Below, piece by piece: positions 9,441 to 33,826 of a DNA stretch of 64,000 nucleotides. The position numbers were made by a program, and so were the translations under genes. The stretch comes from Prevotella sp. (GTDB lineage Bacteria > Bacteroidota > Bacteroidia > Bacteroidales > Bacteroidaceae): assembly GCA_017413085.1 (NCBI GenBank), contig JAFPVC010000061.1, forward strand, positions 62,001-126,000. The letters are read 5' to 3'. Each line of letters opens with the position of its first letter. Position 1 is the first letter of the stretch. The notes under the pieces were generated by a model, which was given only the letters and a program-made list of their open reading frames with translations, had not been told where the DNA came from and did not search any database.

Positions 9441-9505
9441 TGCGACCAAGAAACGACTGAAAAAAAGCGAAAAACAATATCAAAAACGAGCTAAAAAAAC
9501 AACAA

Positions 9506-9910: not shown

Positions 9911-9971
9911 ATGCCGGCAAATGACGTTATATATAATGTAGGGAGCAGAAACGCCCCTGCAGAGGAATCTA

Positions 9972-10841
9972 ATGATAACAGCATCAATAGTAACATACAA
10001 CCACCACCTGTTAGACTTTGAGCCTGTATTGAGGAGCTTATTCGCATCGCCCGTAGACATTATCTACATAGTAGACCACTCTGATTACATGCTCGACCTG
10101 AAACAGGAACTGCAGGAATTTGTACAGCGCGTACTCAAGGGCGAGCAGGAACTGAAGAAAAAAGCAGAAGAAGGCTTCCAACTGATATACATGCCCCATG
10201 AGAACAACGGATATGGCGGCGGTCACAACGTGGCAATGCGCGAGGCAATGAAGAAAAACAGCCAATACCATCTTGTGGTAAATCCCGATGTATGGTTCGG
10301 GCCTGAGGTTATACCTACTCTCAAAGACTACATGGACGCGCACAAGGAGGTGGGACAGATGATGCCGAAGGTGATGTATCCCAACGGACAAATCCAGAGG
10401 CTGGCAAAGATGCTGCCCACGCCGTTGGATATGTTCTGCAGATTTTGCATGCCCGAATGGATAATAAAGCGCCGCAATACAAAATACGAACTATGGCAGT
10501 CGGGTTTCAGCAAAACGATGAACGTACCCTACCTGTCTGGCTGCTTCATGTTTCTGAGAATGTCGGCGTTAGAAGAGATTGGACTGTTCGACGAGCACTT
10601 CTTCATGTATGCGGAAGACATAGACATGACACGCCGTATGCACCAGAAGTATGAGACGCTCTACTATCCCTCGACAACCATATACCATACATTCACGCGC
10701 GGCTCGCGCAAGAGCCTCAGACTGCTGCGCATCCACATAGTGAACATCATAATGTATTTCAACAAGTGGGGATGGTGGCGAGACGAAGAACGCAAGATAA
10801 TAAACAACAAGGTGCAAGAACAAATAGGCGGCGCATTATAA
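9972..10841 (+). CDS. Family 2 glycosyltransferase, rhamnosyltransferase-like
   Basis: The 289-residue GT-A enzyme begins ITASIVTYNHHLLDFEPV and has the nucleotide-binding segment NNGYGGGHNVAM. Its metal-binding acidic motif is NPDVW, and the later motif EIGLFDEHFFMYAEDIDMTRR is typical of rhamnosyl- and related transferases. A C-terminal region with a hydrophobic helix (LLRIHIVNIIMYF) suggests membrane association. It acts at the cytoplasmic face in glycan assembly. The start of the PorZ-like gene follows after 2-22 bp. Confidence 0.9.
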   Translation: MITASIVTYNHHLLDFEPVLRSLFASPVDIIYIVDHSDYMLDLKQELQEFVQRVLKGEQELKKKAEEGFQLIYMPHENNGYGGGHNVAMREAMKKNSQYHLVVNPDVWFGPEVIPTLKDYMDAHKEVGQMMPKVMYPNGQIQRLAKMLPTPLDMFCRFCMPEWIIKRRNTKYELWQSGFSKTMNVPYLSGCFMFLRMSALEEIGLFDEHFFMYAEDIDMTRRMHQKYETLYYPSTTIYHTFTRGSRKSLRLLRIHIVNIIMYFNKWGWWRDEERKIINNKVQEQIGGAL

Positions 10842-10863
10842 GATGCGCCAGAGAAAGAACACA

Positions 10864-13008
10864 ATGTATAGAAAACTATTTATATTCATAATAGTCCTGT
10901 TCATACACTGTGCAGCGGTGTCAGCCGCTGCAGTCGGAACATGGAAGGTTTACCGCAGCTACTCACCGATAGAAGAGATAGCCCCGGCAGGCAACCTCGT
11001 GTTTGTAAAGGCCAACGGCAACCTGTACTCATACAATACATCCGACAAGGCACTCACAACATACGCCAAAGAAGACGGTCTGTGGGGCAGTGCCATCAAT
11101 CACATCAAATGGGTGCCGACGACAAAAAAACTCATCATTGTCTACGATGACTACACGATAGAACTGCTGTCGGCAAACGGCGACGTGGAGACCATAGTGG
11201 CCCTGCGCGAGAAACGCATGACTACAGACAAAACCGTCTATTCGATATATATAGACAAGCAGTATGCCTATCTGTGCACCGCCTTCGGACTGATGAAGAT
11301 TGACACCAGAGAATGTCTGGTAGAAGACACCTACTCCATCGGCATAGCAGCCATCCAGATGACCATCAGCAACGGAAAGATATACATAGCATCGGATGCC
11401 GGGCCGCTATACGAAGCACCGACAGACGCTAACCTCATTGACAAGAACACCTGGACTGAATCAGAGGCTAACTGGGATGAAATAAAGACTGTCCTGGAAA
11501 ACGACCGCAACGACTATGGGCAGATAGTCTACGACAGCCACTGCAAATGCTACTGGGGCAGTAATGCCGAGGGACGGCTGACACAGTATGACAAAACCGA
11601 CGACGGCTATACCGCAATTGGCGACGGCGTAATACCCGATGGTCCCAAATATCCGGAACACATGGTGGTGAGGATGTATAACGGAAAGATACACACGCTC
11701 CGTGGATTCTACAACATGGACGGTCTGGGGAAAGGCTGGGAAGGCGTAGTCCAGACGTTCGACGGACAAGACTGGAGCATCTTCGACAACAGCATGGCAG
11801 AGGAGAACGAATACAACCATAACGACTATAACTGCATGGCACAAGACCCTCTGAACAAAAACCACATTATGGTGGGCGGTGCGACAGCACTGTTCGGCTA
11901 CACAGACGGGAAGATGACAGAGCGGTATACCGGCAAACACACGAAGACAGCCGAAGGTACTAACGCCATGGTATGGAGCGAGACAGCAGCCATCACGGGA
12001 CTGGCATACGACAAGAAAGGCAATCTATGGGTGATGAATATGCAGAACCCTGCACCACTCGTATGCTACACCAAGGACAAGGAATGGAAGACATTCAGCC
12101 CGCCCACGCTAAAAGCCAAAGGCAAAGCCATACTCTACGTATCGCCATTCTTTGACTCCAGAGGCCTTATGTGGTTCTGCTACAACCACTACCTGGGCAA
12201 TTTCTTCGGCTTCTACAACCCTGAGACCGACGAGACAAGCCTTATAGACAACTTTACCAACCAAGACGGAAAGAACATCAATCCTGCCAACACGTGGGAC
12301 TCACGCGTGGTAACCGAAGACATGGAAGGTAACGTGTGGCTCGGCACGAACCACTATACCATATACGTTACACCTGACGACATAAAATACATGTTGTCGC
12401 ACAGCAACGACCTTACATCATTAAGAGTGACGCAGCATAAGGTGCCGCGCAACGACGGAACGGGACTGGCAGACTATCTGCTCGACGGTATATCCGTGCG
12501 TGACATCAAGGTGGATGCCGCAAACAGGAAATGGATAGCTACCGATGCCAACGGCGTATACCTGATAAGCAGCGACAACAATACAGAGTTGGAACACTTT
12601 ACCACTGACAACAGTCTGCTGCCGTCAAACAAAGTATGCAGCATCTGCATCGACGACAAGAACGGGCGCGTGTATTTCGGCACGCTGAACGGTCTCTGCT
12701 CATACGAGACCGGCATGACAGAAGACTACGGCACGCTCGACAAGGCAAACATATATGCTTATCCAAACCCCGTCAGACCGGAATATACCGGCGACATAAC
12801 AATCAAGGGACTGATAGAGAACGCACAGATTAAAATCACTACCTCGTCAGGCTATGTAGTGCATGAGGGCGTAAGCAACGGCAACATATACAAGTGGAAC
12901 GGATGCGACCAACAAGGCGAGCGCGTTGCATCGGGAGTATACATGGTGCTTGTGACGACACCTACCGGTGAGGAAGGGTGTGTGACGAAGATAGCGATGG
13001 TAAAGTAA
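10864..13008 (+). CDS. porZ: PorZ-like T9SS surface protein (two propellers plus C-terminal domain)
   Basis: The protein has about 714 residues. An in-frame ATG at 10843 exists, but the one at 10864 gives a proper signal peptide (MYRKLFIFIIVLFIHCAAVS). Most of the sequence is propeller blades of the two-component-regulator type (LWGSAINHIKWVPTTKKLII, NVWLGTNHYTIYV, KWIATDANGVYLIS). It ends with a type A T9SS C-terminal domain starting at YPNPVRPEY and finishing ASGVYMVLVTTP...KIAMVK. In P. gingivalis PorZ delivers anionic LPS to the sortase PorU. Its position inside a glycan-assembly operon fits that job. The assignment rests on domain order and length; a generic propeller protein is the alternative. 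Confidence 0.72.
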   Translation: MYRKLFIFIIVLFIHCAAVSAAAVGTWKVYRSYSPIEEIAPAGNLVFVKANGNLYSYNTSDKALTTYAKEDGLWGSAINHIKWVPTTKKLIIVYDDYTIELLSANGDVETIVALREKRMTTDKTVYSIYIDKQYAYLCTAFGLMKIDTRECLVEDTYSIGIAAIQMTISNGKIYIASDAGPLYEAPTDANLIDKNTWTESEANWDEIKTVLENDRNDYGQIVYDSHCKCYWGSNAEGRLTQYDKTDDGYTAIGDGVIPDGPKYPEHMVVRMYNGKIHTLRGFYNMDGLGKGWEGVVQTFDGQDWSIFDNSMAEENEYNHNDYNCMAQDPLNKNHIMVGGATALFGYTDGKMTERYTGKHTKTAEGTNAMVWSETAAITGLAYDKKGNLWVMNMQNPAPLVCYTKDKEWKTFSPPTLKAKGKAILYVSPFFDSRGLMWFCYNHYLGNFFGFYNPETDETSLIDNFTNQDGKNINPANTWDSRVVTEDMEGNVWLGTNHYTIYVTPDDIKYMLSHSNDLTSLRVTQHKVPRNDGTGLADYLLDGISVRDIKVDAANRKWIATDANGVYLISSDNNTELEHFTTDNSLLPSNKVCSICIDDKNGRVYFGTLNGLCSYETGMTEDYGTLDKANIYAYPNPVRPEYTGDITIKGLIENAQIKITTSSGYVVHEGVSNGNIYKWNGCDQQGERVASGVYMVLVTTPTGEEGCVTKIAMVK

Positions 13009-13009
13009 G

Positions 13010-13057
13010 AATTGAAGAATTGAAAGATTGAAGAATTGAAGGATTGAAAAGTTGAAG
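13010..13057 (+). repeat. Octamer microsatellite overlapping a start codon
   Basis: Six 8-nt units with consensus RRTTGAAR run from the porZ stop codon into the next gene. The last unit (13050-13057) supplies the TTG start codon at 13052 and the first Lys codon. Confidence 0.8.
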
Positions 13058-13900
13058 TTCTCACTCATCATACCTCACCACGGAGATGACAGACTGCTTG
13101 ACAGGCTGCTGAAGAGCATACCCGACCGCGATGATCTGGAGACGATCGTGATACGCGATGACAAGGCAAAAGGAGCTGGATGGGCACGCAACAAAGGCCT
13201 GGAGCATGCTGTCGGTGAGTATGTATTGTTTGCTGACAGCGACGACTATTTTACAAGCGGATTCTATCAACTGCTTGATGAACTACAGACAGAGACGGCC
13301 GACATCATTTTCTTCAATGCCCATTCTATAACCGAAGGCACAGGCAAGCCCTCTTGGCGCGCTGACAGGCTTAACTGGATAATGAAACAGCCCGCCGACA
13401 GGCGCGAGTTCTTTCTGCGCCACACATTCACCGAACCATGGTGCCATATCGTAAGACACAGCCTCATCGAGCAGTACGGCATCCGCTTTGACGAAGGCCC
13501 CATGCTTGAAGACGTAGCCTTCACCACTATGGCGGGCTATCACGCACAAACAATAAAAGCAGACAGCCGAGTCTTCTACTGTATATGCGACCGGGCGGAA
13601 AGCAACGGCAAACGACTAAGCGACGAGCGCCTCGTCACTCACTCTAAGGTGCTGGCCAAGGCGAACCTGTTCAACAAGATACACGCCATAAATTATTATC
13701 ACATAAGAATGGTATATCCTGTGTTTTACTGCATGACACACTGGAATTGGAGCCTGGCACTGAAATGCTGCCGCACGATTATAAAAGAAGGATACACCTG
13801 GCCGCAGTTAACCTACAGGCTGCTAACTTTCCCTTTCTCAGTTATAGGGTGGACTTATCGAAAATGGTGCTATGCAAGAGCAAGAGAAGAAAATACGTAA
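13052..13900 (+). CDS. Family 2 glycosyltransferase with TTG start
   Basis: The 282-residue GT-A protein begins KFSLIIPHHGDDRLLDRLLKS and has the DXD-like ADSDDYF motif near residue 55 and EDVAFTTMAGYH near residue 155. No in-frame ATG exists at the right place. A TGA lies 15 bp upstream, so translation must start at TTG 13052 inside the octamer array. The end overlaps the acyltransferase gene by 29 bp, indicating translational coupling. The donor and acceptor sugars are unknown. Confidence 0.87.
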   Translation: MKFSLIIPHHGDDRLLDRLLKSIPDRDDLETIVIRDDKAKGAGWARNKGLEHAVGEYVLFADSDDYFTSGFYQLLDELQTETADIIFFNAHSITEGTGKPSWRADRLNWIMKQPADRREFFLRHTFTEPWCHIVRHSLIEQYGIRFDEGPMLEDVAFTTMAGYHAQTIKADSRVFYCICDRAESNGKRLSDERLVTHSKVLAKANLFNKIHAINYYHIRMVYPVFYCMTHWNWSLALKCCRTIIKEGYTWPQLTYRLLTFPFSVIGWTYRKWCYARAREENT

Positions 13901-14795
13901 ATATGCCAACATGGACTTAGTGCGATACGCACTGACCATACCTGTTATTCTCGAGCATTGCAACGTGCTACTCGGAACAAAGATATGGTGGATGATTAGT
14001 GCCGACCATGCAGTCAAAGGATTCTTCGCACTCAGCGGTTTCCTGATGTATGGCAGCTATATCAAGAGAGATAGTTGGCTGGGTTTCGTCAAATCACGTG
14101 CAAAGCGCATTGTGCCGCCCTACGTAAAGATTGTACTGTTGTGTGCCATCGGACTGAGTTTAGTGTCTACACTGCCCCTGACAAAGTATTTCACAGATGC
14201 AGGACTATGGAAATATCTTGCAGCCAACTTAGCATTTCTGAATTTCCTGCAACCGACGCTGCCGGGAGTGTTTGAGCACAACAATGTTGACGCAGTAAAC
14301 GGCTCGCTGTGGACACTGAAAGTGGAATGGATGCTGTATCTTACCATTCCCGTATTTTTCTTCCTAATCAGAAAGACCAACTGGAAGCCCGCCTATATTA
14401 TATATGCCATAGCGATTGCATCAATAGCATATAAGTTCGGCATGGAACTCATGTATGAGTCAACAGGCAATGGCTTATACCAGATATTAGGACGCCAGTT
14501 CGCCGGCCAGCTTATATTCTTCTACCTCGGAGTATTATTGAGCATATATCACAATGCTGTAGAGAAATATGCAGTATGGCTACTTGCAGTATGCCTGGCT
14601 GTCTATGCGACAGGCGCGTTCATTGACAGCAACGCCTTTCTCGACATAGTGTTACCAATGTCATTCTGCACAATCGTAATACTGTGCAGTACATACTGGC
14701 CCTTAGGAGAGTGGACTTCACGGATAGGCAACAAATCATACGAGGTATACCTGTATCACTTTCCCATAATACAACTGATTGCAAACTTCATGTAA
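13872..14795 (+). CDS. Membrane acyltransferase 3 family protein
   Basis: The 307-residue protein has about ten hydrophobic segments and the acyltransferase-3 hallmarks: an N-terminal NMDLVRYALTIPVILEHC with the conserved His, GFFALSGFLMYGSY, and an Arg-rich turn KSRAKRIVPPY. These enzymes O-acylate sugars at the membrane, usually using acetyl-CoA. Within this operon it probably O-acetylates a repeat-unit sugar. It overlaps the preceding glycosyltransferase gene and is followed after 7 bp by a GT4 gene. Confidence 0.88.
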   Translation: MQEQEKKIRKYANMDLVRYALTIPVILEHCNVLLGTKIWWMISADHAVKGFFALSGFLMYGSYIKRDSWLGFVKSRAKRIVPPYVKIVLLCAIGLSLVSTLPLTKYFTDAGLWKYLAANLAFLNFLQPTLPGVFEHNNVDAVNGSLWTLKVEWMLYLTIPVFFFLIRKTNWKPAYIIYAIAIASIAYKFGMELMYESTGNGLYQILGRQFAGQLIFFYLGVLLSIYHNAVEKYAVWLLAVCLAVYATGAFIDSNAFLDIVLPMSFCTIVILCSTYWPLGEWTSRIGNKSYEVYLYHFPIIQLIANFM

Positions 14796-14802
14796 GAACG
14801 CC

Positions 14803-15855
14803 ATGCGAATAGTCTACGTCATAGAAGGTCTGTCTGTAAAAGGAGGCTTGGAACGCATCCTTACAGACAAGATGAACTACCTCGCTGAGCACACTGCTCA
14901 TGAGATAGTGCTGATGACCGTGTGGCATGAAGACGGGGAAGTACCATACCCACTAAGTCCTAAAATCAGGCGTATCAAGCTCAACGTACCGCCAACGCTT
15001 GTCGCCTTACCCCTCGCTATATGGAGGTTTAACAAATACATTAAACGCGCCAACCCAGACATCACCGTATTCTTCCGGGCAATAGGAGCCATGCTCATAG
15101 CATCCACCACATGGAAAGGGCGCAAGATATTTGAGTCACATCTGGACTATCACCACTCAAACCACAACTGGCTTTATCCATACATGCAGCGTAAGGCTGA
15201 CACCGTGGTGTGCCTGACACAAGGCGATGCAAGGAACTTCAAGGAATCAAGGCATACTATCGTAATACCAGATTTCACCACCATCAAGCCCATATCCGCT
15301 CCTGACTATTCTTCAAAACGCTGCATCTGGGTGGGAAGGCTCGAACCAGAGAAAGCACCCGACAAACTGGTACGCTTATGGAAAACCATACATGCCAGCC
15401 ACCCCGAATGGAGAGTTGACATGTATGGCGAAGGCAGGATGAGAGAGCAGATACAGAACATGATAGCATCGTCGGGGCTTGCAAACGTAATATCACTGCA
15501 TGGCGTCACCGACAACATTGCAAAAGAATATCAGAAATGCAGTTTCCTAATTATGACCTCCGAATGTGAGGGCATGGGCATGGTACTGATAGAAGCCAAC
15601 GCATGTGGACTGCCTGCGATAGCATTCGACTGTCCGCACGGCCCAAGCGACATCATAAAGGACAAGGAAACTGGCTTCCTCATTGACATTAATGACACAG
15701 AAGCCATGACACAAGCCGTCATGACATTAATCGAGCATGACGACCTGCGCCAACACATGGGGCAAAATGCTGTCAAAGCAGCAAAGGAATATTCACCAGA
15801 AAGAATAATGTCTATGTGGCTGAAACTATTCACAAATAACAATGCCAGAGAATAA
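14803..15855 (+). CDS. Family 4 glycosyltransferase
   Basis: The 350-residue GT-B enzyme starts MRIVYVIEGLSVKGGLERI. An upstream in-frame ATG at 14779 would overlap the acyltransferase gene and add eight non-conserved residues, so 14803 is preferred. The C-terminal half has the GT4 motifs WVGRLEPEKAPDKLV, ISLHGVTDNI and the donor-binding ESEGMGMVLIEA-like stretch (SECEGMGMVLIEANACGLP). It retains the sugar-nucleotide configuration in its product. It overlaps the next gene by 14 bp. Confidence 0.92.
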   Translation: MRIVYVIEGLSVKGGLERILTDKMNYLAEHTAHEIVLMTVWHEDGEVPYPLSPKIRRIKLNVPPTLVALPLAIWRFNKYIKRANPDITVFFRAIGAMLIASTTWKGRKIFESHLDYHHSNHNWLYPYMQRKADTVVCLTQGDARNFKESRHTIVIPDFTTIKPISAPDYSSKRCIWVGRLEPEKAPDKLVRLWKTIHASHPEWRVDMYGEGRMREQIQNMIASSGLANVISLHGVTDNIAKEYQKCSFLIMTSECEGMGMVLIEANACGLPAIAFDCPHGPSDIIKDKETGFLIDINDTEAMTQAVMTLIEHDDLRQHMGQNAVKAAKEYSPERIMSMWLKLFTNNNARE

Positions 15856-16633
15856 CATGCTGCTTTCCGTCATCATACCAGTATATAAAGTTGAGCACAC
15901 ACTTGACCGTTGCATTAAGAGTGTGGTCACACAGGGCATTGACAACATACAGATAATACTCGTTGATGACGGCTCACCCGACAAATGTCCTGCACTGTGC
16001 GACGAGTGGGCAGCTACAGACCATCGCATACAAGTGATACACAAGCGGAACGGTGGACTGAGCAGTGCGCGCAATGCCGGCATAGACATAGCAACTGGTG
16101 AATATATAACATTCGTTGACAGCGATGACTATCTCTCGTCCGATACATACCTGCCACTGATGCGGCAACTTGCTGAACATCCAGAAATCGACATGATAGA
16201 ATACAGTTTCAACATAACAGGCGGCAAGAGATTAAACACGAATTATGCCGATGCTACTTTCAACACCGCAGACGAGTACTGGATGCACACACATGCATGG
16301 AGTCACTCCTACGCATGCAACAAAATCTACCGACGCAGCCTCTTCAACGGATTGAGATATGAAGAGGGAAAACTGTATGAGGACTTATTCCTCATGCCTC
16401 ACCTGCTGAAAAAGAATCCACGCATAGCGACAAGTTCACTCAAAGGCTACAACTATTGCCTTAGCGAAAACAGCATCAGCTGCAAGACCAACCGCAAGAA
16501 CATCAAGCAACTGTTAATAGCAGAAATTAAGGCCGCAAGGATTATGCACACGCATCCTTTCTCGCTCAACGGATTGGAATTATACAAAGCCATGATATAT
16601 AGGATTACAGATATAATAAAAAGTTATTTCTAA
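15842..16633 (+). CDS. Family 2 glycosyltransferase
   Basis: The 263-residue GT-A enzyme has the textbook N-terminus LLSVIIPVYKVEHTLDRCI, then LVDDGSPDKCP, NGGLSSARNAGIDIATGEY and FVDSDDYLS. An EGKLYEDLFLMPHL segment marks the catalytic base region. It could also start at 15857. It overlaps the previous gene and the next one begins on the base after its stop codon, so it belongs to the coupled glycan operon. Confidence 0.92.
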   Translation: MPENNMLLSVIIPVYKVEHTLDRCIKSVVTQGIDNIQIILVDDGSPDKCPALCDEWAATDHRIQVIHKRNGGLSSARNAGIDIATGEYITFVDSDDYLSSDTYLPLMRQLAEHPEIDMIEYSFNITGGKRLNTNYADATFNTADEYWMHTHAWSHSYACNKIYRRSLFNGLRYEEGKLYEDLFLMPHLLKKNPRIATSSLKGYNYCLSENSISCKTNRKNIKQLLIAEIKAARIMHTHPFSLNGLELYKAMIYRITDIIKSYF

Positions 16634-17848
16634 ATGCGCATACTGTTACTCGGAGAATATAGCAACGTACATAACAATCTGGCATACGGTCTGCGTGCTC
16701 TTGGCCATGAAGTAGTGACAGCCAACAACGGTGACTATTGGAAACATTTCGACAGCGACATCAATCTGTCAAGATGGGTAACACACGAAACTGGCTGGCG
16801 CGCCCGACTGCAGAATGCCATACACTTCATTCCTTTTGTCTGCAGGCTGATTCCCGGTCTGCTCCGTATGCAGAATTTCGACGTGGTGCAACTCATCAAT
16901 CCTATATTCCTTGAATTGAAGGCAGAACGACATTTCAGCATATACCGTTACCTGCGAAAGCACAATAAAAAGATTGTGCTCGGCGCAATGGGCGACGACT
17001 ATTATTTCTGCCACATAAACCATACGCTGAAGCCCATGCGCTACTCCGACTACAACATCGGTTCAACGGAACGCATGACAGACTTTGCACATTGGACTTA
17101 CTATGATGAGGTAGGAACAGAAAAAGAACGACTGTGCCGCATGATTGCCCACGACTGTGATGCCATTGTTTCAGGTATGTATGAATACTGGCTGCCTTAC
17201 AGCATGACCGAAGACAAGGACAAAAACGGCAAACTACTGCGCGAAAAACTGCTCAACATTCCATTCCCAATCAAAAGCGAAGACGTCGGCAGAGGAGAAG
17301 ACAACTGCAAAGAAGAAAGCTACTGCGAAGAATACTATGGTAGAGAAGACAGCAATACTACAAAGCCAATTAAAGTATTCGTAGGAGTAAGTAAGGAACG
17401 AGCCGTATTTAAGGGTACGGACATATTGCTGCAAGCCGCCAAAGAACTGCAGCACAAGTATCCCGGAAGGATTGAACTGCGCATAGCCGAGGGGATTCCC
17501 TTTGCTGAATATCAGAAATTGATGGACTCGTCAGACGTACTTCTCGACCAGATATACAGTTACGGCCCGGGCATGAACGCACTGCTTGCCATGTCGAAGG
17601 GTATCATAGCCGTGAGCGGTGGCGAACCGGAATACTATGACCTCATGGGTGAGCATGACTGCCGTCCCATCATCAATGTAGAACCTACGTATGACAGCGT
17701 ATACCACCAATTGGAAAATCTCATCCTGCATCCGGAAAGACTGCAGAAACTCAAGAGCGAAAGCCGTCGATATATAATGCGCAACCACGACGCAATAAAG
17801 GTTGCACAACAATATGAAAAGTTATATCAAAGACTATGCGAAGAATAA
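16634..17848 (+). CDS. GT-B (GT4-like) glycosyltransferase
   Basis: The 404-residue protein begins MRILLLGEYSNVHNNLAYGL with the glycine-rich GT-B start. Its C-terminal half carries KGTDILLQAAKEL and the donor-site region SSDVLLDQIYSYGPGMNALLAMSKG...SGGEPEYYD. An unusual highly acidic Cys/Tyr-containing insert lies at roughly residues 215-243, between the two Rossmann domains, and looks like a flexible extra linker. The stop codon overlaps the start of the phosphatase-CotH gene by 13 bp. Confidence 0.82.
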   Translation: MRILLLGEYSNVHNNLAYGLRALGHEVVTANNGDYWKHFDSDINLSRWVTHETGWRARLQNAIHFIPFVCRLIPGLLRMQNFDVVQLINPIFLELKAERHFSIYRYLRKHNKKIVLGAMGDDYYFCHINHTLKPMRYSDYNIGSTERMTDFAHWTYYDEVGTEKERLCRMIAHDCDAIVSGMYEYWLPYSMTEDKDKNGKLLREKLLNIPFPIKSEDVGRGEDNCKEESYCEEYYGREDSNTTKPIKVFVGVSKERAVFKGTDILLQAAKELQHKYPGRIELRIAEGIPFAEYQKLMDSSDVLLDQIYSYGPGMNALLAMSKGIIAVSGGEPEYYDLMGEHDCRPIINVEPTYDSVYHQLENLILHPERLQKLKSESRRYIMRNHDAIKVAQQYEKLYQRLCEE

Positions 17849-20682
17849 TACCACTCGTCATATCAATAATAATATGCACGCTAGCTGACGCCATTGTCAT
17901 CCAGAAACTGGAAGCTGGCAAACTTACACCTATGTGTCGGCCCTACTCTGTTGACACAACAATGTATGGTAAGCTGTATGCCGTTGCACAAGTAAATGGA
18001 GCGACTGCAACCCTGCTGCCTGTAACAAAAGTTGACAGTGGAGTTCCATTCGTATTACTGCCGGACAGCAACTGCATTATTACCGACAGTATAAGCAGCG
18101 ACAGTATTGCAGCCGACATCCTCGCACTTTGGGATGCCACTATACTGCGTGGAGACTACAACACCAATAGTTGGGTGGCTGTTTCTGTTGACAGCACTAC
18201 CATAACGCATGCAGAAGACCTGCAATACATCATTGCCGACCCAGCTAACCTCAACATCACGGTCAACATTGAAAACCGTTGCGTGCAACGCTATCTTTCT
18301 GCCGCTCACTACGGTTATGAAGACTCTGCCATAGTCGAGAAATTCCGCTATGCCCCACCCCAGCGTTTCGACTGGCCTCAGCAGGTCATAATTCCCATGA
18401 GCGACGGAAAAAAGTTGCGATTTATGAACCTGACACCTGGTGAAGTCAAGACATTTGAAGCTAGCGATTCAAACGGAATCACATACAAAGGCACGATAAA
18501 AGCCACCGGCACCGCACGCATGATAGGTCTTGAAACGCCCAACCATAATATGCGCGACCTCGGCGGATGGAGCGTCGGACACTGCAAGCGTGTACGACAC
18601 GGCTTGCTATACCGCAGTGCCGAACTGAATGGTTCATATCCATGCACAGAGGAGGAAATTAAATACCTGAAGGATGACATTGGCATCAAGGCAGAACTTG
18701 ACCTGCGATATGACAATGAACATGAGAAACACGATCAAGCAGGTATCTCAGCCTTCGGTTTTTCTCAGGCAGACACCACCTATTACTGGGCTTGTGCCAA
18801 CGACTATTCTGCAGAATCAATGATGCAACCAGATACAAGGGCGAGACTGAAGGAAGAATTCGGCTTCATACTGTATAACTTGAGCAAAGGACGCCCAGTG
18901 AACTTCCACTGCCACTACGGTGTTGACCGTACAGGAATCATGGCAATGCTACTGCTCGGTGTACTGGGTGTAGACATTGACCAGATATACAAAGACCATG
19001 AACTATCCACCTTCGGACCTTACAGTTGGACAAGTCTGAAAGAAGAACTGAAAGACCGTGTAGATGTAATAACATCCATCAATGCTCCTACGCTGCGCGA
19101 CAAGTTTGAAGAATTCTTCACAGACTCACTCGGTGTGGCAGCAAAAGACATTGAGACATTCCGTTCGATCATGCTGTATATACCAGATAGTCTTGTACAC
19201 GTTCCACACATAAACATCACCTTCGGCAACGACAATGTCTGGAATTCAGAGAACTGGATAGGCAAAGACGGCAAATCTACATGGATTGATGCGACTATAT
19301 CCATCGACGGCGGCGGACGCTATCCCGACATGCAGCCGACAGAAATAAAGATAAAGGGGCGCGGCAATACCAACTGGTATCAATCACCGTATGCAAAGAA
19401 CCCCTACAACTTCAAGTTCACGAAGAAGCAGCAACCGCTCGGATTGAAGAAAGGAAAGAAATGGACTCTTCTCTCAAACAAAATGACAGGTAGTATGCTC
19501 ACCAATGCTATAGGCATGAAGATAGCCGAACTGTTTGACTGCGCATGGGTAAACCACATGCTGCCCGTGGAACTTTACTGCAACTCATCATACCGTGGGA
19601 GTTACAACCTGACAGAGAAACCAGGGTTTGGCAGCAACAGCGTTGACCTTAAAGACGAATCTCTGGCAGCACTCATCGAGTTAGACACATACGACACCGA
19701 CCCCACAGAACCCATTGACAGCAGCAATGCAGCCAGACTGCCGGTAAAAATAGATGACCCGGATTTCCTTGAAGAAGACAACACACGACTAATTACGAAA
19801 GAACAAGTCATAAACGACATAAACCATCTGATACAACTTGTACACGAAAAGGATTCTACGTATGCCAACTACATAGACATTGAACGTATGGCAAGTTTCA
19901 TAGCCGCATGTGAATTGATGGGCAACTGCGAACTCAAACATCCGAAGAGCGTTAAGCTATACACAGAAAACGTGACCGACAACGTCAATGACGACGGTGT
20001 AGACCCAACGCCATGGGTATTTGCACCTATATGGGATCTTGACTACGCCTTTGGCCGCGAGGAATCAGACACTACAAAAACGAACAAACGTTCATATTTC
20101 ATTCACGGCATAGAGACAGACTACCTGCCGCAGGTGCTCGACTCTGCCTCATCAGCAAACCGAAACCACTGCTTCTTCCATACTCTGCTGATGAGCAACG
20201 ACAAGGTGCGCCGCGCATATTACCGCAAGTGGTATGAGTTTATGACGCAGAACAAACTGCAAGTGCTCTTCAAATATATTGATGAATACTACGATTTCGC
20301 CGCACCATCATTGCTTCACAACAACAAAAACGCCACCATTAACCGTGATGCTACCAACTATGCCGCACAAAAGGAAAGGGCAAAACAGTGGCTAAGGCAA
20401 AGGGCTGAACTCATCTTCAGCCGCCACCGTAAACGCTTTACACATCAAGGCGACGTGAACACCGACGGCTCAATCACCATGGCAGATGCCAACATGGTGG
20501 TGAATTATTTCCTTAGCAATAATAACGAGGAAGAAACGCCATCAGACATCGACATGTCAGTAGCTGACATTAATGTTGACGGACAAGTTACCATGGCAGA
20601 TGCCAACATAATTGTAAACACCTATCTCGGTGCAGACAAAAACATTGACAAAAACGAAAGCGAAAGCGAAGAAAACGAGTAA
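17836..20682 (+). CDS. Exported tyrosine phosphatase-CotH kinase-dockerin fusion
   Basis: The 948-residue exported protein contains three recognisable modules. After the signal peptide (MRRIIPLVISIIICTLADA) and a ~170-residue unassigned beta-rich region comes a Y_phosphatase3-like domain (~200-440) with HNMRDLGG (237-244) and the signature HCHYGVDRTG. Within this signature C359 and R365 form the CX5R loop. A CotH-type protein kinase domain follows (~450-850) with IKIKGRGNTNW (506-514), KKGKKWTLLSNKMTG, LTEKPGFG and WDLD (D734, D736). It ends with a type I dockerin of two calcium-loop repeats (DVNTDGSITMADAN from 873 and DINVDGQVTMADAN). Kinase and phosphatase signatures both look complete. 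The gene overlaps its neighbours on both sides (13 bp and 1 bp), so it is made together with the glycosyltransferases. Its substrate is unknown. Confidence 0.85.
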   Translation: MRRIIPLVISIIICTLADAIVIQKLEAGKLTPMCRPYSVDTTMYGKLYAVAQVNGATATLLPVTKVDSGVPFVLLPDSNCIITDSISSDSIAADILALWDATILRGDYNTNSWVAVSVDSTTITHAEDLQYIIADPANLNITVNIENRCVQRYLSAAHYGYEDSAIVEKFRYAPPQRFDWPQQVIIPMSDGKKLRFMNLTPGEVKTFEASDSNGITYKGTIKATGTARMIGLETPNHNMRDLGGWSVGHCKRVRHGLLYRSAELNGSYPCTEEEIKYLKDDIGIKAELDLRYDNEHEKHDQAGISAFGFSQADTTYYWACANDYSAESMMQPDTRARLKEEFGFILYNLSKGRPVNFHCHYGVDRTGIMAMLLLGVLGVDIDQIYKDHELSTFGPYSWTSLKEELKDRVDVITSINAPTLRDKFEEFFTDSLGVAAKDIETFRSIMLYIPDSLVHVPHINITFGNDNVWNSENWIGKDGKSTWIDATISIDGGGRYPDMQPTEIKIKGRGNTNWYQSPYAKNPYNFKFTKKQQPLGLKKGKKWTLLSNKMTGSMLTNAIGMKIAELFDCAWVNHMLPVELYCNSSYRGSYNLTEKPGFGSNSVDLKDESLAALIELDTYDTDPTEPIDSSNAARLPVKIDDPDFLEEDNTRLITKEQVINDINHLIQLVHEKDSTYANYIDIERMASFIAACELMGNCELKHPKSVKLYTENVTDNVNDDGVDPTPWVFAPIWDLDYAFGREESDTTKTNKRSYFIHGIETDYLPQVLDSASSANRNHCFFHTLLMSNDKVRRAYYRKWYEFMTQNKLQVLFKYIDEYYDFAAPSLLHNNKNATINRDATNYAAQKERAKQWLRQRAELIFSRHRKRFTHQGDVNTDGSITMADANMVVNYFLSNNNEEETPSDIDMSVADINVDGQVTMADANIIVNTYLGADKNIDKNESESEENE

Positions 20683-21683
20683 TGCCTAAGGTTAGTATAA
20701 TAACAGCAGTTTACAACTGCGAGAAATACTTGCGCCAATGTCTCGACTCTCTTGTAGGGCAGACATACAAAGACATAGAGATAATATGCGTTGACGACGT
20801 ATCAACGGACAGCAGCTACGAGGTCCTTTCGGAATATGCAGAGGCAGACGAACGCATCAAACTCTTAAAGCAGAAGGCAAACGGCGGGGCACAGTTGGCC
20901 CGCCAGGCTGGTGTGGACATTGCCTCCGGCGAATACATAATGTGCATAGACAGCGACGACTGGCTTGACACTGACTGCATAGAACTATGCATTAAGGACT
21001 TCAATGAGAATCCAGACGTGGACTGTCTTGTTTTACGCGATGTGCGACACAGGCCAGACGGTACGAGTTTTGAGCCGGAAGGACGACATCATTTCCATAA
21101 AATCAGTGGAGAGCAGTCCTTTCTGTGGAGTCTGCCATGGCATATAAACGGAAGAAAGATAGTGCGTGCCGAACTTCAGCGCCGTTTCCCCTGGGACAAC
21201 TCATGCAGAGTGTATGGCGACGACAACACGTCTGTCCTAATGGGGCTATTTGCACAACAAGTAATGCAGACACGCGGTACATACAATTACCGCCTTAGAC
21301 CAGCATCTGTAACCCATTCCGTCAACATGGGCTGGTTTACCTGCCTCAGGGCTCACGACTCCATGTCGCAGCAGCTATTGAATCTAAACGTAAAACAGGA
21401 ACTGCGTGCCTTCTATGAAACATTCCGCTGGGAGCGTTTCATTCACTCATACATGCACTTCTACATAATGCGCAGATACCTTACAGCCACACAGCGCAAG
21501 GAAGCCCTGAATATAATGAAACAGATGCGCAGAAGAATTGACTACGGAATGGTCGACAAGAAACTGAAACGCAAGTTCGGCTACTGGCCGATTCTATGGT
21601 CGTGGTCACTGTTCAGGTTGCAGGAAGAAGTGTATTTCACTCTTCGCAAACTAATTGGCCACCTCAACTTCGACTACTCCTGA
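20682..21683 (+). CDS. Family 2 glycosyltransferase, last gene of the + strand glycan operon
   Basis: The 333-residue GT-A enzyme has PKVSIITAVYNCEKYLRQCLDSL, ICVDDVSTDSSYEVL, NGGAQLARQAGVDIASGEY and CIDSDDWLD. Its start codon overlaps the previous stop codon (TAATG). The 3' end overlaps the convergent ATP-grasp gene by 33 bp, so both operons run into each other without room for a shared terminator hairpin. Confidence 0.92.
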   Translation: MPKVSIITAVYNCEKYLRQCLDSLVGQTYKDIEIICVDDVSTDSSYEVLSEYAEADERIKLLKQKANGGAQLARQAGVDIASGEYIMCIDSDDWLDTDCIELCIKDFNENPDVDCLVLRDVRHRPDGTSFEPEGRHHFHKISGEQSFLWSLPWHINGRKIVRAELQRRFPWDNSCRVYGDDNTSVLMGLFAQQVMQTRGTYNYRLRPASVTHSVNMGWFTCLRAHDSMSQQLLNLNVKQELRAFYETFRWERFIHSYMHFYIMRRYLTATQRKEALNIMKQMRRRIDYGMVDKKLKRKFGYWPILWSWSLFRLQEEVYFTLRKLIGHLNFDYS

Positions 21684-27359: not shown

Positions 27360-28490
27360 TCAATGTCTCTGTCTGCGCACGCTGACGCGTGAACCACTGG
27401 CAGCTCCGCCAGAGGTAGCTGACGGACGCTGACGCTTGCGGCTTGCCGTGGCAGACTTGTTTTCACTGCCGGATGTTGCCGCCGACACCTCTGCACCGCC
27501 GGCACCCTGTGCACGACGGTTGGCACGCGACTTTCTGGCTTTCGGATGTGATGCCTCGACCTTGGCTATCGAGTCAAGTGAATCTTTGCGAGCCTTGTCG
27601 CCCCAGATGTTTTCCTCAAAAGCCTTCAACTCCCCTTCTATACGTTGCTGTTCCTTTGCCATGGCGGAATCCGTAGGACAGTATTGTGCCAGCGTCTGAC
27701 CGAGCATGTTGTTGGTTTTGTATATCTTGCCACGATACATATTCTTGACAAAGTAGTCGTCCATGCTCATCGTTGCGGCATTGTTGATGTCGCTAGTCAT
27801 GATAGTCTGCTTGGTGAGGAACGGTGCAACGTCGTCGTATTTCACCCAGAAGAGCGGATAGCGCGCAGTGCCGTCGCCGAAGTCATCCTCGCGGAACATT
27901 ATCGGGCAGAGGGCTATTACCTTGGTGTGGAACGTGGCTGAGTTCTGATCGAAATAAGATGATTCCTTGATATAGTATCCCTTAACTTCTCGCGACGGGA
28001 TGTCGGAATTGTCGAGCTTCAGGCGTCCGTCTTTTCGCTCATAGTAGATGTTGTAGTCATCAAGCAGCGACAGAGGCTTGAGCTGGTTGTCAGGCTCAAA
28101 TGACTCATTGCCGTCAATATTATACTTGTATGCCTTCACCTGACCAGACAACACGAGTTTGAAGAGATAGGTGAAGAGGTTCATCTGCGAGCCAACGGGC
28201 TCTACAGGATAGTACATGCCTGAGTTTGCTCCCTGCGTAAGGTCGAGTTCACGGTATATGTCACGACGCCACACCACGTCTTCCTTCATCTGCATTGTAG
28301 CAGGATAGGATATCTGGGCACGCGTTGTAAGCGTGGTGGCACTCTTGCGCGCAGCACCGGCATCCTGTTTTTGCTGGACACGACGCTGAGCGGGCTGTGC
28401 CTGAACCAAATGAAAAGTAAATAGTGAAAAGAGAACAATGCAGATTACCTTCGATGCTGTTCCACTTATTTCTTTTATCTTATTCATCAT
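27360..28490 (-). CDS. porN: T9SS protein GldN/PorN
   Basis: The 376-residue periplasmic protein has a signal peptide (cleaved after VQA). The GldN core follows: VVWRRDIYRELDLTQGANSGMYYPVEP, LFTYLFKLVLSGQVKAYKY and a final conserved region including EENIWGDKARKD. With PorK it forms the large periplasmic ring under the outer membrane. The protein carries a strongly basic, Ser/Ala/Arg-rich tail of about 55 residues after the core (KARKSRANRRAQG to the C-terminus). Gene order and spacing place it last in porP-K-L-M-N. Confidence 0.93.
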   Translation of the reverse strand: MMNKIKEISGTASKVICIVLFSLFTFHLVQAQPAQRRVQQKQDAGAARKSATTLTTRAQISYPATMQMKEDVVWRRDIYRELDLTQGANSGMYYPVEPVGSQMNLFTYLFKLVLSGQVKAYKYNIDGNESFEPDNQLKPLSLLDDYNIYYERKDGRLKLDNSDIPSREVKGYYIKESSYFDQNSATFHTKVIALCPIMFREDDFGDGTARYPLFWVKYDDVAPFLTKQTIMTSDINNAATMSMDDYFVKNMYRGKIYKTNNMLGQTLAQYCPTDSAMAKEQQRIEGELKAFEENIWGDKARKDSLDSIAKVEASHPKARKSRANRRAQGAGGAEVSAATSGSENKSATASRKRQRPSATSGGAASGSRVSVRRQRH

Positions 28491-28518
28491 ACTATATTCT
28501 TTGTTAATTCATCATTTA

Positions 28519-30069
28519 TTACTTAACCACAACCTCCATTCCGCCTGGCAGCGTGCGAGCTATACCGTCAGGGCCTACAGCGTGAACCTGCGTAATGAAG
28601 AAACTCTTTGAGCGAGATAGTTTGCGGAAGAGTTCCATCTGGCGCGGTGAGAAAGAAGCTCCGTTGCTGACTATTGGCACACGGTTACCCATATTGTCGA
28701 AGAACACTGCCACGAAGCTCGTCACCTTAAATTCTATGTCGAGTAGTCCGTCGTCGATGGCGGCACGCAGTGTGGTAACGCCCATAAGGTCTCCCTTAGC
28801 CATATTGCCACCCTTGAAGCGGTTGTCGCCCACCTTGATGTATGGTGTAGGATCAGGCAATTTACGAACATGGAATGTAAACGCACCCATTCTTACTGGT
28901 TTGCCAGTGGCAAGACTTGAGACTGTAATGGTAACGTCTTGTCCTACGGCAGACGGACGAGCGATATAATGACCTGCACCGGTTGGTGTGAACGAGCCGC
29001 CGGTCATTGTTGCAGAAACCTTGTTGAGCGGCACGCCTGGTATGCTGACGGATATCGGGTTGTTGAAACCTGCATACAGTACATTCATAAGGTCTGCCGA
29101 TACTGTTGCCGACGGATCAACGACTGTGTATTTCTGTTCAAAGTCACGACGTAGCACCTGACCACCGCCGTCCTTCATTGTCATATAGCCCGAGAGGGTA
29201 AAGTCGCCGGTCTTGCCGGGCATGAACTCGTAGGTATTGTTACGCAGTTCCACTTTGCGTCCGCCAATATATACCTCCGGCTGCTGCGTAGTATCGATGG
29301 CGGCCATCACTATCTGTGCAGAGAACTTGTCGCCACGTATCACTGTCTTAGCATCAGGAATGACGAATGCGTCAAGTTTGTTCACGCGTATGTCCTTGAT
29401 GTCAATATTGCTGACGAGAGTATGGAGCACCTCACCCTCGGCATAACGCACATCATTTTGCAACTTTGAGAGCAAAGTGACGGCTGCCGCCACTGGCATT
29501 TGCTCAAACATATATTCCTGCCAGTTCTTGCCAAGAGCCTTTGCCTTTGGCGACACTTCGGTTGAAAGATTTCCCTCGATGATTTTACGCAGGCGCTCGT
29601 CCTTAAGCATACCAAGACACTTCGAGCGGTAGTCCTCTATCATCTTCTGAAGCTGCGGTCCCTTGCCACGGCCAGGCGACAGCATCACCTGTGATGCAGC
29701 CTCAAGGTCCTCACGGTTTTCTATGTTGTGTATATCGCCGTCCTTGCCATCAGCTTCTTTTACTATAGCGACCTTCAGTTCCTCAGCAAAGTTGTAGAGT
29801 TCATCGCTCATTTTCTTCACCTGCTGTGCTTTCTCATACCACTCTCGCGTCTTCTGCGGATTGGCCTTCATCTGAGCATCGAAGTCGGCGTATATTCCAA
29901 GGTTCTCCTTCGTGGCATTAAGCGTAGAACGGTCAAGTCCCTCCGACACAATGGAGAAACCATTGAGCACCTCCGTAGAGACGTTCATCGCAAGCATCGC
30001 CATCAACACGACATACATGAGGTTGATCATTTTCTGGCGAGGAGAAACTGGTCTTTTCTTTATTGCCAT
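28519..30069 (-). CDS. porM: T9SS motor protein GldM/PorM
   Basis: The 516-residue protein begins with a cytoplasmic stub and one transmembrane helix (KMINLMYVVLMAMLAMNVS), followed by a long periplasmic region of a helical domain and stacked Ig-like domains. Motifs include NGFSIVSEGLDRSTLNATKEN and VSIPGVPLNKVSATMTGGSF. PorM dimers with a PorL pentamer form the proton-driven rotary motor of T9SS, and the periplasmic part contacts the PorKN ring. The length is normal for the family. Confidence 0.95.
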   Translation of the reverse strand: MAIKKRPVSPRQKMINLMYVVLMAMLAMNVSTEVLNGFSIVSEGLDRSTLNATKENLGIYADFDAQMKANPQKTREWYEKAQQVKKMSDELYNFAEELKVAIVKEADGKDGDIHNIENREDLEAASQVMLSPGRGKGPQLQKMIEDYRSKCLGMLKDERLRKIIEGNLSTEVSPKAKALGKNWQEYMFEQMPVAAAVTLLSKLQNDVRYAEGEVLHTLVSNIDIKDIRVNKLDAFVIPDAKTVIRGDKFSAQIVMAAIDTTQQPEVYIGGRKVELRNNTYEFMPGKTGDFTLSGYMTMKDGGGQVLRRDFEQKYTVVDPSATVSADLMNVLYAGFNNPISVSIPGVPLNKVSATMTGGSFTPTGAGHYIARPSAVGQDVTITVSSLATGKPVRMGAFTFHVRKLPDPTPYIKVGDNRFKGGNMAKGDLMGVTTLRAAIDDGLLDIEFKVTSFVAVFFDNMGNRVPIVSNGASFSPRQMELFRKLSRSKSFFITQVHAVGPDGIARTLPGGMEVVVK

Positions 30070-30076
30070 CTTATTC

Positions 30077-30148
30077 TGGTTGTTTGGTTGTCTGGTTGTT
30101 TGGTTGACAACCTATCTACTAAACGACTAAATTACTAAACGACTAATT
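30077..30148. repeat. Two adjacent octamer microsatellites between porL and porM
   Basis: Four octamers of TGGTTGTY type (30077-30108) and four of TACTAAAC/GACTAAWT type (30117-30148) fill nearly the whole porL-porM gap. The second block includes the porL stop codon. Confidence 0.75.
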
Positions 30149-31282
30149 ACCTAATCCTCTGTTTGTACCAGGCATATTCACTGTCATGGCCTCAATCATA
30201 CGTGTATAGATATTGTTGAGTTCCTGTATCTTCTGTGCCATGATGCGCGTCTGCTCGTTAATGGAGTCTTGGGTGGTAATCTGCTGCGATGCTGACTTGA
30301 GCTGCATCTCGTAAACACGGGCGATACCTGTAAGCGTACGGTTGAGGTTCTCCATTTCCTCACTGTCTGTAGAGAGGCGTGATGTGAGCTGACCAACTTT
30401 CTCAAGCATTTCGTTAAGTTCAGCCAAACGCTCGATGTATGCCTTGGTAACCACCTCCATCTCAGCAGCAGTCTCACGTGACACAGCTGGTGCAGGAGTG
30501 ATAATCTGAGGTGCTGCCGTCTCTGTATTTACTGTCATCTCAACCTTCTCTGTATCAGCGTCTGAAGTATTGGATGTTTCAGAAGACTGCTTGCCACTTA
30601 CGACAGGAGAACCACTGGCAACGACTCCACCTGTATTACCGCCACCGATGATTATAGTACCATTGCTTGGCACACCGCTCACTGCGGCTTGCACATTACC
30701 AGTTACAGGCGTTCCGTCTGCACCGTTGCCACCACCACCAATTACTATAGTGCCACCAGTGGTTCCACCGCTAACGGTTCCGCCACCAATGTTACCGCCA
30801 CCTACATTGCTGCCACCTATAACTACAGGTGCACCATTGCCGTCTGCCGGTTCTGGTGAAGCCGTAGGAATTGCCACGGGTGCAGTATGTTGTTTTCCTT
30901 GTGGTTGAGAATAAGGATGCTGCTGTACAGCCGGGTTCTGCTGCACAGGCTGTGCCGCTGGCTGTACGGCCGGTATACCAAGAGGATTGCCTGCTACGTC
31001 ATCTATGACATTGTCTGCCATGTGGTTGTCAAGTGCCATATCGATGGTTGACTTGTCAAACGGACGGTCAAAGGCTGAGATGAAGAACACAACCACCTCC
31101 GTACCCATACCGAGGAAAAGCATGAGGTTTGCACCCGGCAAGTGGGTCAGTTTAAACAATGTACCGAGAATCACGACTGCGGCACCCCATGAATATGCGT
31201 AGTTAAGGAACGTCTGTCCAGGCACGCTGTCCATCCATTTCTGCAGGAAATAGATAAAGTTTATCTTGCTGTATTTGCTCAT
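30143..31282 (-). CDS. porL: T9SS motor protein GldL/PorL with expanded Gly-rich linker
   Basis: The 379-residue inner-membrane protein has two transmembrane helices (about residues 26-45 and 51-71, GTEVVVFFISAF) with the conserved acidic Glu62 of the proton path. The C-terminal cytoplasmic part from ~260 is predicted coiled coil (AYIERLAELNEMLEKVGQLTSRL). Between them lies a long low-complexity region: Pro/Gln-rich at ~100-140 and Gly-rich at ~149-225 with repeated TIVIGGGGNG-like units. P. gingivalis PorL is about 309 residues, so this linker is an expansion. The motor role follows from the family. Confidence 0.93.
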   Translation of the reverse strand: MSKYSKINFIYFLQKWMDSVPGQTFLNYAYSWGAAVVILGTLFKLTHLPGANLMLFLGMGTEVVVFFISAFDRPFDKSTIDMALDNHMADNVIDDVAGNPLGIPAVQPAAQPVQQNPAVQQHPYSQPQGKQHTAPVAIPTASPEPADGNGAPVVIGGSNVGGGNIGGGTVSGGTTGGTIVIGGGGNGADGTPVTGNVQAAVSGVPSNGTIIIGGGNTGGVVASGSPVVSGKQSSETSNTSDADTEKVEMTVNTETAAPQIITPAPAVSRETAAEMEVVTKAYIERLAELNEMLEKVGQLTSRLSTDSEEMENLNRTLTGIARVYEMQLKSASQQITTQDSINEQTRIMAQKIQELNNIYTRMIEAMTVNMPGTNRGLGN

Positions 31283-31334
31283 TGTCTTTTGTATGTTTAG
31301 TTGTATGGCAGTTTAGATAATTGGTAACGCCAAC

Positions 31335-32822: not shown

Positions 32823-32884
32823 ATATATCGTTTTATCTATTTCTATCTAATATCAATCATTTAACAACCTTCAGGCAGAGCGTC

Positions 32885-33826
32885 TCACAGGGTTCTCGTC
32901 GTCTGATGACGGTTCTTTCCTTTCTTTCCAAGCTCAATGTCTGTCTGATAACCAACAAAAAGCTCATGTGAACCGTTCTTTATGCTTATGCCATTTGTGT
33001 ACATTTCAAACGAATATCCAACAACTACGCCATGAAGTTTGCCACCTATCAGAAGCGTAGCCGAATTTGTCGGGCTATATCCTATACCGGCATACATCAT
33101 CTGGTCATCATATTCATATATCAGTCGGCCTGTCAAATCACCACGATATGCAGTCAAATCACTTTGGACAAGTGCCGACAATGCAACCTTAAGCAGCGGA
33201 TTAGGCAACTGAAAAGAAACACCACCAGTAGCATAGAGCATAGGACTGACTTTTATAACATTCGATGTGCCAAGTTCTATGCTGGGATTCGTCAAGTGAA
33301 GCGCACTGAGGCCTGCATACCAGTTCTTACGCTGATAAAAAACTCCCAGTCCAATGTCCAATCCGCTACCGTCAATGTCACTCTGCGCAAGCACCTTGTC
33401 ACCTGTATCTATGACTTCAAGCTTCGAGCCACCCCACTTCTCATCGAGCAAGCCAAGAAGAACGCCCCCGGACATCCACCCACCGCCCAACTGCTTACGC
33501 AGTGAATACTGCAGGCTGATACGCTGATGCGTGAACAAACCTATCTGGTCATTCATCAACTGTGCTCCAACACCATGCACCTGCTTAAGGGCTACGAACG
33601 GAATGTCGCCAGCAACGACAAAAGTACGCGGCGCATTTTCAAAGCCGGCAAGATTCATGACATAAGCACCTATGACATTCAACTGATCCTGTTTACCTAC
33701 CGTAGCGGGATTAAACACAGTCTGCATGTCGAAATAGTGAGAGAAATACGGGTCATACTGCGCCAGAGCCTTAGTCGACACCAGTGCAAGCACCGTATTT
33801 AATATGACATATTTATACCTCTTCAC
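32885..33826 (-). CDS. porP: T9SS outer-membrane protein PorP/SprF family
   Basis: The 313-residue barrel has a signal peptide (cleaved after ALA) and the PorP/SprF opening QYDPYFSHYFDMQTVFNPATVGKQDQLNVIGAY. Repeated strands with GVGAQLMNDQIGLFTHQRISLQYSLRKQL and GYSFEMYTNGISIKNGSHELFVGYQTD follow. It is the first gene of the porPKLMN order known from P. gingivalis. I could not see a good TAnnTTTG promoter in front of it, which would fit control by an alternative sigma factor, but that is inference. Confidence 0.92.
   Translation of the reverse strand: MKRYKYVILNTVLALVSTKALAQYDPYFSHYFDMQTVFNPATVGKQDQLNVIGAYVMNLAGFENAPRTFVVAGDIPFVALKQVHGVGAQLMNDQIGLFTHQRISLQYSLRKQLGGGWMSGGVLLGLLDEKWGGSKLEVIDTGDKVLAQSDIDGSGLDIGLGVFYQRKNWYAGLSALHLTNPSIELGTSNVIKVSPMLYATGGVSFQLPNPLLKVALSALVQSDLTAYRGDLTGRLIYEYDDQMMYAGIGYSPTNSATLLIGGKLHGVVVGYSFEMYTNGISIKNGSHELFVGYQTDIELGKKGKNRHQTTRTL

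Follow-up and report, generated by a model that had tools for sequence, protein, structure and literature searches.

A phosphatase-CotH-dockerin fusion gene in a porZ-linked glycosyltransferase cluster of Prevotella and its possible tie to surface phospho-glycan

The window analyzed here, a stretch of 64,000 nucleotides from Prevotella sp. (GCA_017413085.1, contig JAFPVC010000061.1, positions 62,001 to 126,000), carries a gene at 17836..20682 whose 948-amino-acid product, P0001, joins a phosphatase domain, a CotH domain and a type I dockerin. The gene lies in a cluster of glycosyltransferase (GT) genes that also includes porZ, a gene of the type IX secretion system (T9SS). In related genomes a phosphatase and a CotH domain recur as fusions or as neighbors, often near porZ, which suggests that the two share a job in surface-glycan chemistry. 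Our preferred reading, held tentatively, is that P0001 is a surface phospho-glycan phosphatase tied to T9SS and lipopolysaccharide (LPS) anchoring, with an altered CotH half. Coordinates are positions in the window and lie on the forward strand unless stated otherwise.

Domains of the fusion protein

The three-domain architecture of P0001 is real, with Pfam matches far beyond chance for Y_phosphatase3 at residues 237-445 (18544..19170; E 2.7e-27, 96.7 bits against a curated cut-off of 22.2), CotH at residues 507-858 (19354..20409; E 2.2e-23, 83.7 bits against 23.8) and Dockerin_1 at residues 872-928 (20449..20619; E 1.8e-11, 44.5 bits against 22.9). The open reading frame begins with an ATG codon and a signal-type hydrophobic stretch of 19 residues (57 nucleotides, 17836..17892), from whose hydrophobicity alone the protein is predicted to be exported. 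Residues 20-236 (17893..18543) have no Pfam match and resemble, by eye, the N-terminal part of T9SS-type phosphatases at loci L149 and L135. The original prediction, made from the sequence of this stretch, had described an exported protein with these three domains, and that description is upheld.

The phosphatase domain has solved relatives in 8dhi and MptpB (1ywf). Its P-loop, HCHYGVDR at residues 358-365 (18907..18930; HCHYGVDRTG with the next two residues), retains Cys359 and Arg365 of the CX5R signature, where they had been predicted, and Asp364 is intact as well. Of 105 distinct phosphatase frames at the fetched loci, 102 retain the P-loop pattern, a count that leaves out loci L102-L131, judged cytosolic from the appearance of their frames. 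The three exceptions are a start-cut copy of the P0001 gene, L209 (Asn for Asp) and one L052 frame with no CX5R within its matched stretch. The Lys of the solved loops (GKDRTG) is Val in P0001, and it is missing also in 98 of the 102 frames that keep the pattern. The P0001 phosphatase is probably active.

For CotH, with a solved relative in B. cereus CotH (5jd9), a profile of 15 sequences matched 5jd9 at 2.3e-14 over residues 35-355 of 359. In 5jd9, the two Asp residues that align with the NxD and WD positions are 23 residues apart, the same spacing as Asp228 and Asp251 of B. subtilis CotH, and these two residues map to Glu699 (codon 19930..19932) and Asp734 (codon 20035..20037) of P0001. Passages of PMC7821199 call both the D228Q and the D251A variants of B. 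subtilis CotH inactive. The motifs GRGNTNW and WDLD (Asp734, Asp736) are present where they had been predicted; an intact active site is not, with Glu699 standing at the position of the essential Asp228. Across 65 aligned CotH sequences, 28 of them from one narrow group (L233-L262), column 734 is always Asp; at column 699, 57 sequences have Asp and eight have Glu: P0001, both CotH sequences of Prevotella sp. UBA3837, L035, L036, L037, L039 and L050. Further cases at column 699 are Glu in L285 and L286 and Asp in L287 and L288. The CotH proteins at the porZ-nadA locus described below keep Asp in this column (L146, L147 and L218). In one CotH subfamily the residue at the catalytic position and the WDxD motif seem to covary, Glu occurring with WDFG, WDLG or WDMG (L285, L286, L320 and L136) and Asp with WDLS (L287 and L288).

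P0001 also departs from the other CotH sequences at K522N, R602S and K710T. In a reduced set of 36 sequences it departs in nine of 38 conserved columns, eight of them non-conservatively, and ranks sixth by non-conservative departures, with four porZ-locus CotH sequences departing more. To call the CotH half wholly degenerate is therefore too strong. The alignments point to an altered kinase half, which could be dead, slow or different.

The dockerin was also predicted correctly, with two complete loops that both carry the full calcium-loop pattern (DVNTDGSITMAD and DINVDGQVTMAD). The source genome (2.83 Mb, 79% complete) contains 37 Dockerin_1 matches, P0001 among them. As in P0001, both repeats carry the signature [ST]M[AS]DA in 31 of the 36 others, and the last such signature lies no more than 45 residues from the frame end in 23 of the 36. 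The genome was also searched for cohesins, the partners that the original prediction had proposed to look for, and cohesin-type proteins were found: four matches in three frames, three of them over the cut-off, with at most two cohesin-like stretches per frame. With Pfam, a 2724-residue protein on contig C61 passes (26.8 bits against 24.1) and the other two fall just under (23.2 and 23.4 bits). Both the C61 protein and a 647-residue protein on contig C55, which combines a dockerin with a cohesin, end in T9SS-type tails. No multi-cohesin scaffoldin was found in this 79% complete genome, and the first 420 residues of 18 of the 37 dockerin proteins included, by eye, a single lookalike of a polysaccharide-degrading enzyme. 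A cellulosome reading of P0001 finds no support in the proteins inspected. Some proteins that share the dockerin type of P0001 look by eye like peptidases and leucine-rich repeat (LRR) proteins.

A profile of T9SS-type C-terminal tails matched 36 places in the genome, none of them at the P0001 gene. Against 37 dockerins and 36 tails, the two features stand together only in the C55 frame (653 residues, in the order dockerin, cohesin, tail). In the lineage of P0001, dockerins may act as an alternative tag for retention at the surface. In the genus, a dockerin match was found in 126 of 200 genomes, with up to 30 matches scored per genome, and at least 17 matches in 26 of the 200. The counts look two-peaked, most of the other genomes having few or none. 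Two further arrangements were observed among the loci. At L069:2-4645, two cohesin-type genes adjoin at a contig end, the one with a dockerin, a cohesin-like domain and a T9SS-type tail, the other, cut off by the contig end, with Big_2 repeats as well as cohesin-like stretches. At L070:4460-12863, tandem genes encode proteins of 1117, 806 and 824 residues, of which the first two end in a dockerin, the second being of the CotH-dockerin type. Earlier reports mention rumen Prevotella or Bacteroidetes that bear dockerins, with their role undefined (PMC7480376, PMC6071333), and one rumen Bacteroidetes genome study found no dockerins (PMC5831590).

Phosphatase and CotH as fusions and as neighbors

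The genus was surveyed through all 13 phosphatase frames of at least 600 residues, other than P0001, in 398 genomes, a survey that fusions broken into frames shorter than 600 residues escape. The 13 comprise an intact CotH fusion (L136), a frame that belongs to a broken CotH-phosphatase gene (L352) and 11 frames in which no CotH was seen. The intact fusion, P0002, is an 804-residue protein of Prevotella sp. UBA3837 (L136 and L224 are the same gene) with the order phosphatase-CotH. It has a T9SS-type C-terminus and no dockerin, so the docking module is exchangeable. A separate CotH gene lies about 20 bases ahead of it, and its own CotH domain combines Glu at the Asp228 position with Gly at the Asp736 column. 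P0001 and P0002 share 27% identity over 653 aligned positions.

The third fusion, in genome G168 (L352:2606-5964), extends over four successive same-strand frames with the order reversed, as CotH-LRR-phosphatase-T9SS tail. The frames contain, in order, the start of CotH; its middle; its end with a BspA-type LRR and the start of the phosphatase; and the remainder of the phosphatase, ending in a T9SS-type tail. Pfam recognizes CotH in a 201-residue frame, LRR_5 and Y_phosphatase3 in a 669-residue frame and Y_phosphatase3 in a 238-residue frame. By eye, the CotH pieces have WDFD and an Asp at the 699 column, and the phosphatase loop keeps its Cys, Asp and Arg. This stretch reads as a single CotH-LRR-phosphatase gene that was broken by decay or by assembly errors.

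A search for the same architecture, which the original prediction had called for, yielded these two fusions of phosphatase with CotH and, among the frames surveyed, no second phosphatase-CotH-dockerin protein. Comparison of P0001 with 60 relatives gave no further full-length match, its patterns found no relative in collections of genome contigs and viral contigs, and its DNA had no plasmid match at the megablast level. When P0002 was searched against 301 genomes of the family, with up to three candidates scored per genome, 179 had a match, and among the matches listed only P0001 spans both domains.

Trees covering the P0001 and P0002 fusions, with the G168 fusion left outside them, place the two apart. 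In the phosphatase tree, P0002 falls inside the clade of phosphatases from the porZ/nadA setting (96/92) and P0001 groups with large T9SS-type phosphatases (100/98); a single clade of the two is rejected by the approximately unbiased (AU) test (p 0.0087). In the CotH tree, P0002 is sister to its neighboring CotH gene, P0001 is weakly grouped (78/84) with the Glu-type UBA3837 set, and a single clade is again rejected (AU p 5.3e-5). These trees reject one shared origin for the P0001 and P0002 fusions, with the qualification that the P0001 rows are long branches, where the AU tests share the weakness of the model.

Neighborhoods were then compared by means of gene labels taken from profiles and single-protein queries built for this analysis, part of which were checked by Pfam. 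In a first count of 79 loci, with one phosphatase frame each and CotH frames of at least 250 residues, 17 CotH frames were found near the phosphatases: 15 no farther than 2 kb away, in 279 kb of flank, and two at 2-8 kb, in 533 kb. A single group of related genomes (L174, L175, L179, L181, L194 and L200) supplies 11 of the 17, so that few independent events are represented. At L174, L179, L181, L194 and L200, phosphatase frames of 1170 to 1180 residues stand between large CotH proteins, and those flanking the L174 frame also bear lamin-tail domains.

A second setting has the gene order leuS-yitT-ham1-porZ, followed by a variable part that is often CotH-CotH, then an oppositely directed phosphatase and nadA. 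Ten phosphatase loci of this kind were compared, nine in which nadA is visible (L146; L147 with L269; L148; L151; L152; L153 with L326 and L331; L218; L265; L268) plus L266, whose contig ends within the phosphatase gene. Both porZ and CotH are also present in seven of the ten (L146, L147/L269, L218, L265, L266, L268 and L153/L331). As a control, 35 porZ neighborhoods of 6 to 20 kb were drawn from 150 listed rows regardless of CotH, 15 of them sampled across the list and 20 for the most part from draft genomes; the known positives G142 and G375, although listed too, are not among the 35. CotH was present in one of these (G067) and a phosphatase in none, which gives Fisher p values, uncorrected for relatedness, of 2e-5 for seven of ten and 4.5e-5 for seven of 11 when L222, another phosphatase locus near nadA, is included. 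The cassette in genome G320 also includes a GT gene. At their C-termini the nadA-side phosphatases have a T9SS-type tail in L146 (by eye) and a dockerin in L218, L265 and L266.

The gene cluster around P0001

P0001 is the eighth of nine same-strand genes that extend from 9972 to 21683 with intergenic gaps of at most 43 bases. A GT2 gene (9972..10841) is followed by porZ (10843..13008), which matches the NCBIfam T9SS_PorZ equivalog at 635 bits (cut-off 260) and had been missed in the original prediction. Pfam assigns the next genes as a GT2 (13052..13900), an Acyl_transf_3 acyltransferase (13872..14795), a GT4-type GT (14779..15855) and a second GT2 after porZ (15842..16633), and likewise the first gene and the last, a GT2 at 20682..21683; a GT4-like gene directly ahead of the fusion (16634..17848) has a weak match under the cut-off. 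The start of P0001 overlaps this upstream gene by 13 bases and its stop overlaps the start of the downstream GT2 gene by one base, in agreement with the predicted coupling to glycosyltransferases.

Next after the cluster, on the opposite strand, come an ATP-grasp gene, a flippase-type gene, a GT2 gene and a GNAT gene, beyond which family profiles identify the T9SS core genes gldN, gldM, gldL and gldK with a PorP-family gene (27360..33826, reverse strand). No RNA element reached gathering score in 8000-23000, and a scan for promoters and terminators gave a signal close to that of shuffled sequence and was not used. An anti-phage reading of the locus was dropped, there being no PADLOC match.

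Possible roles and known systems

In P. gingivalis, according to sections of PMC8545088, PorZ binds a branched mannan of anionic LPS that is phosphorylated, and PorZ presents this mannan to the PorU sortase. A role in the phosphate of that glycan, or of its counterpart in the present organism, would suit a phosphatase and a kinase-fold protein found together with porZ and GT genes. On our preferred reading, the protein tyrosine phosphatase (PTP)-fold domain of P0001 would have as its substrate a phosphorylated glycan of the cell surface that the porZ-linked cluster produces, most simply the LPS glycan that serves the T9SS as an anchor. The Glu-type CotH would be an altered kinase, or else a module binding phospho-sugar or nucleotide that delivers the substrate or makes it ready. 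The dockerin would replace the T9SS sorting domain of relatives and tether P0001 to the surface by way of a cohesin protein exported by the T9SS. A bolder form of this proposal, which we regard as improbable, is that the porZ-linked pair edits the phosphate of the T9SS anchor LPS, that Glu-type CotH carries out non-canonical phosphate or nucleotidyl chemistry outside the cytoplasm, and that the pair is here fused and attached to the surface by dockerin and cohesin instead of T9SS sorting.

Several results weigh against a glycan role tied to T9SS anchoring. The P0001 phosphatase lies outside the porZ/nadA phosphatase clade, its identity with that phosphatase being rejected (AU p 0.0147), so it may have come to lie next to porZ independently. 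In three of the ten nadA-side loci there are GT genes near the phosphatase but no porZ in the available stretch and no CotH within 10 kb, although in one of them, G403, a CotH gene lies about 16 kb off. L222, outside the ten, has nadA 4.4 kb away and neither CotH nor porZ, and the same-clade phosphatases L149, L177, L209 and L220 have no nadA, porZ or CotH in their stretches. CotH stands beside porZ without a phosphatase of this kind in G031 (L267), in G528 (L323, another genus) and in G067. Many phosphatase relatives are large T9SS-type proteins away from porZ, and P0001, with no T9SS sorting domain by the genome-wide tail profile, has its route to the surface left unexplained. To our knowledge, a phosphomannan ligand of PorZ comes from P. 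gingivalis only. The PorZ of T. forsythia does not bind the phosphomannan LPS of P. gingivalis, as stated in part of the same report (PMC8545088).

An alternative is a surface phosphatase that acts on nutrient or host or plant phospho-compounds and is docked to a cohesin, the vicinity of porZ and GT genes being incidental. Such a role seems rather doubtful to us. It would suit the origin of the 79 related loci, which come from Bacteroidales genomes and many of them from rumen or gut samples, the many large T9SS-type relatives that do not adjoin porZ, and the dockerin type held in common with peptidase-like and LRR-like proteins. However, it leaves the recurrent CotH partner, the porZ-nadA synteny and the overlap with GT genes unexplained.

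The original prediction was a surface phosphorylation switch, in which CotH adds and the phosphatase removes phosphate on the same surface protein or glycan. Part of it stands: the link between phosphatase and CotH is recurrent and the setting is a glycan cluster. The two domains are tied by fusions and by neighborhoods, Asp734 and Asp736 are kept in P0001, and Asp occupies the 699 column in the porZ-nadA CotH proteins and in L352. The kinase half is where the proposal weakens, since Glu replaces the essential Asp in both intact fusions, at the position where the change D228Q inactivates the B. subtilis enzyme according to passages of PMC7821199; P0002 further has Gly at the Asp736 column, and P0001 shows the non-conservative departures given above. 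No ATP is expected outside the cytoplasm, which also counts against a switch. With Glu at a position whose change to Gln inactivates the B. subtilis enzyme, and no extracytoplasmic source of ATP expected, there are simpler readings than a two-way switch, which we consider unlikely. A loose accretion of exported domains without joint function, in a lineage that shuffles surface modules, is marginally less likely still in our estimate: CotH (312 of 398 genomes; Y_phosphatase3 is present in 101 of the same set) and dockerins are common in the genus and dockerin and T9SS tail interchange among relatives, but accretion does not account for fusions that are separate in the trees, a third in reverse order, or the crowding of CotH frames close to the phosphatase (15 of 17 within 2 kb, 11 of the 17 being from one genome group).

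The function of exported CotH is described as unsettled in part of PMC12484212, and a phosphatase-CotH pair beside porZ offers a place to test it. If the pair changes LPS phosphate or cargo retention, Bacteroidota would edit their anchor glycan at the surface, and exported CotH domains would gain a substrate. Outside Porphyromonas, little is known of the glycan side of T9SS anchoring.

The original prediction knew of no described system with this order of domains. In the open-access literature, none of the matches listed describes a phosphatase-CotH fusion in its title or at the start of its abstract, a weak negative, with many subscription papers outside the search. The nearest known systems each share some of these parts. 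Cellulosome CotH-dockerin proteins of Clostridia and anaerobic fungi, for which a structural or kinase role has been proposed, resemble P0001 in having CotH and dockerin in one exported system; unlike P0001, they have no phosphatase domain in the passages available (PMC12484212, PMC3413522). The PorZ-LPS attachment module of P. gingivalis corresponds to the porZ equivalog in the P0001 cluster, and its PorZ ligand is a phospho-glycan, whereas the portions of PMC8545088 at hand describe no phosphatase or CotH partner. The spore coat kinase CotH of B. subtilis and B. cereus (5jd9) belongs to the same Pfam family and has the Asp251 position in common with P0001, which differs in its Glu at the Asp228 position, its fusion to a phosphatase and its predicted export. 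Y_phosphatase3 proteins of the MptpB type (8dhi, 1ywf) share the P-loop HCxxGxDRTG with P0001, and 8dhi shares the N-terminal NxRDLGG motif as well, whereas P0001 is multi-domain, is predicted to be exported and has Val in place of the loop Lys.

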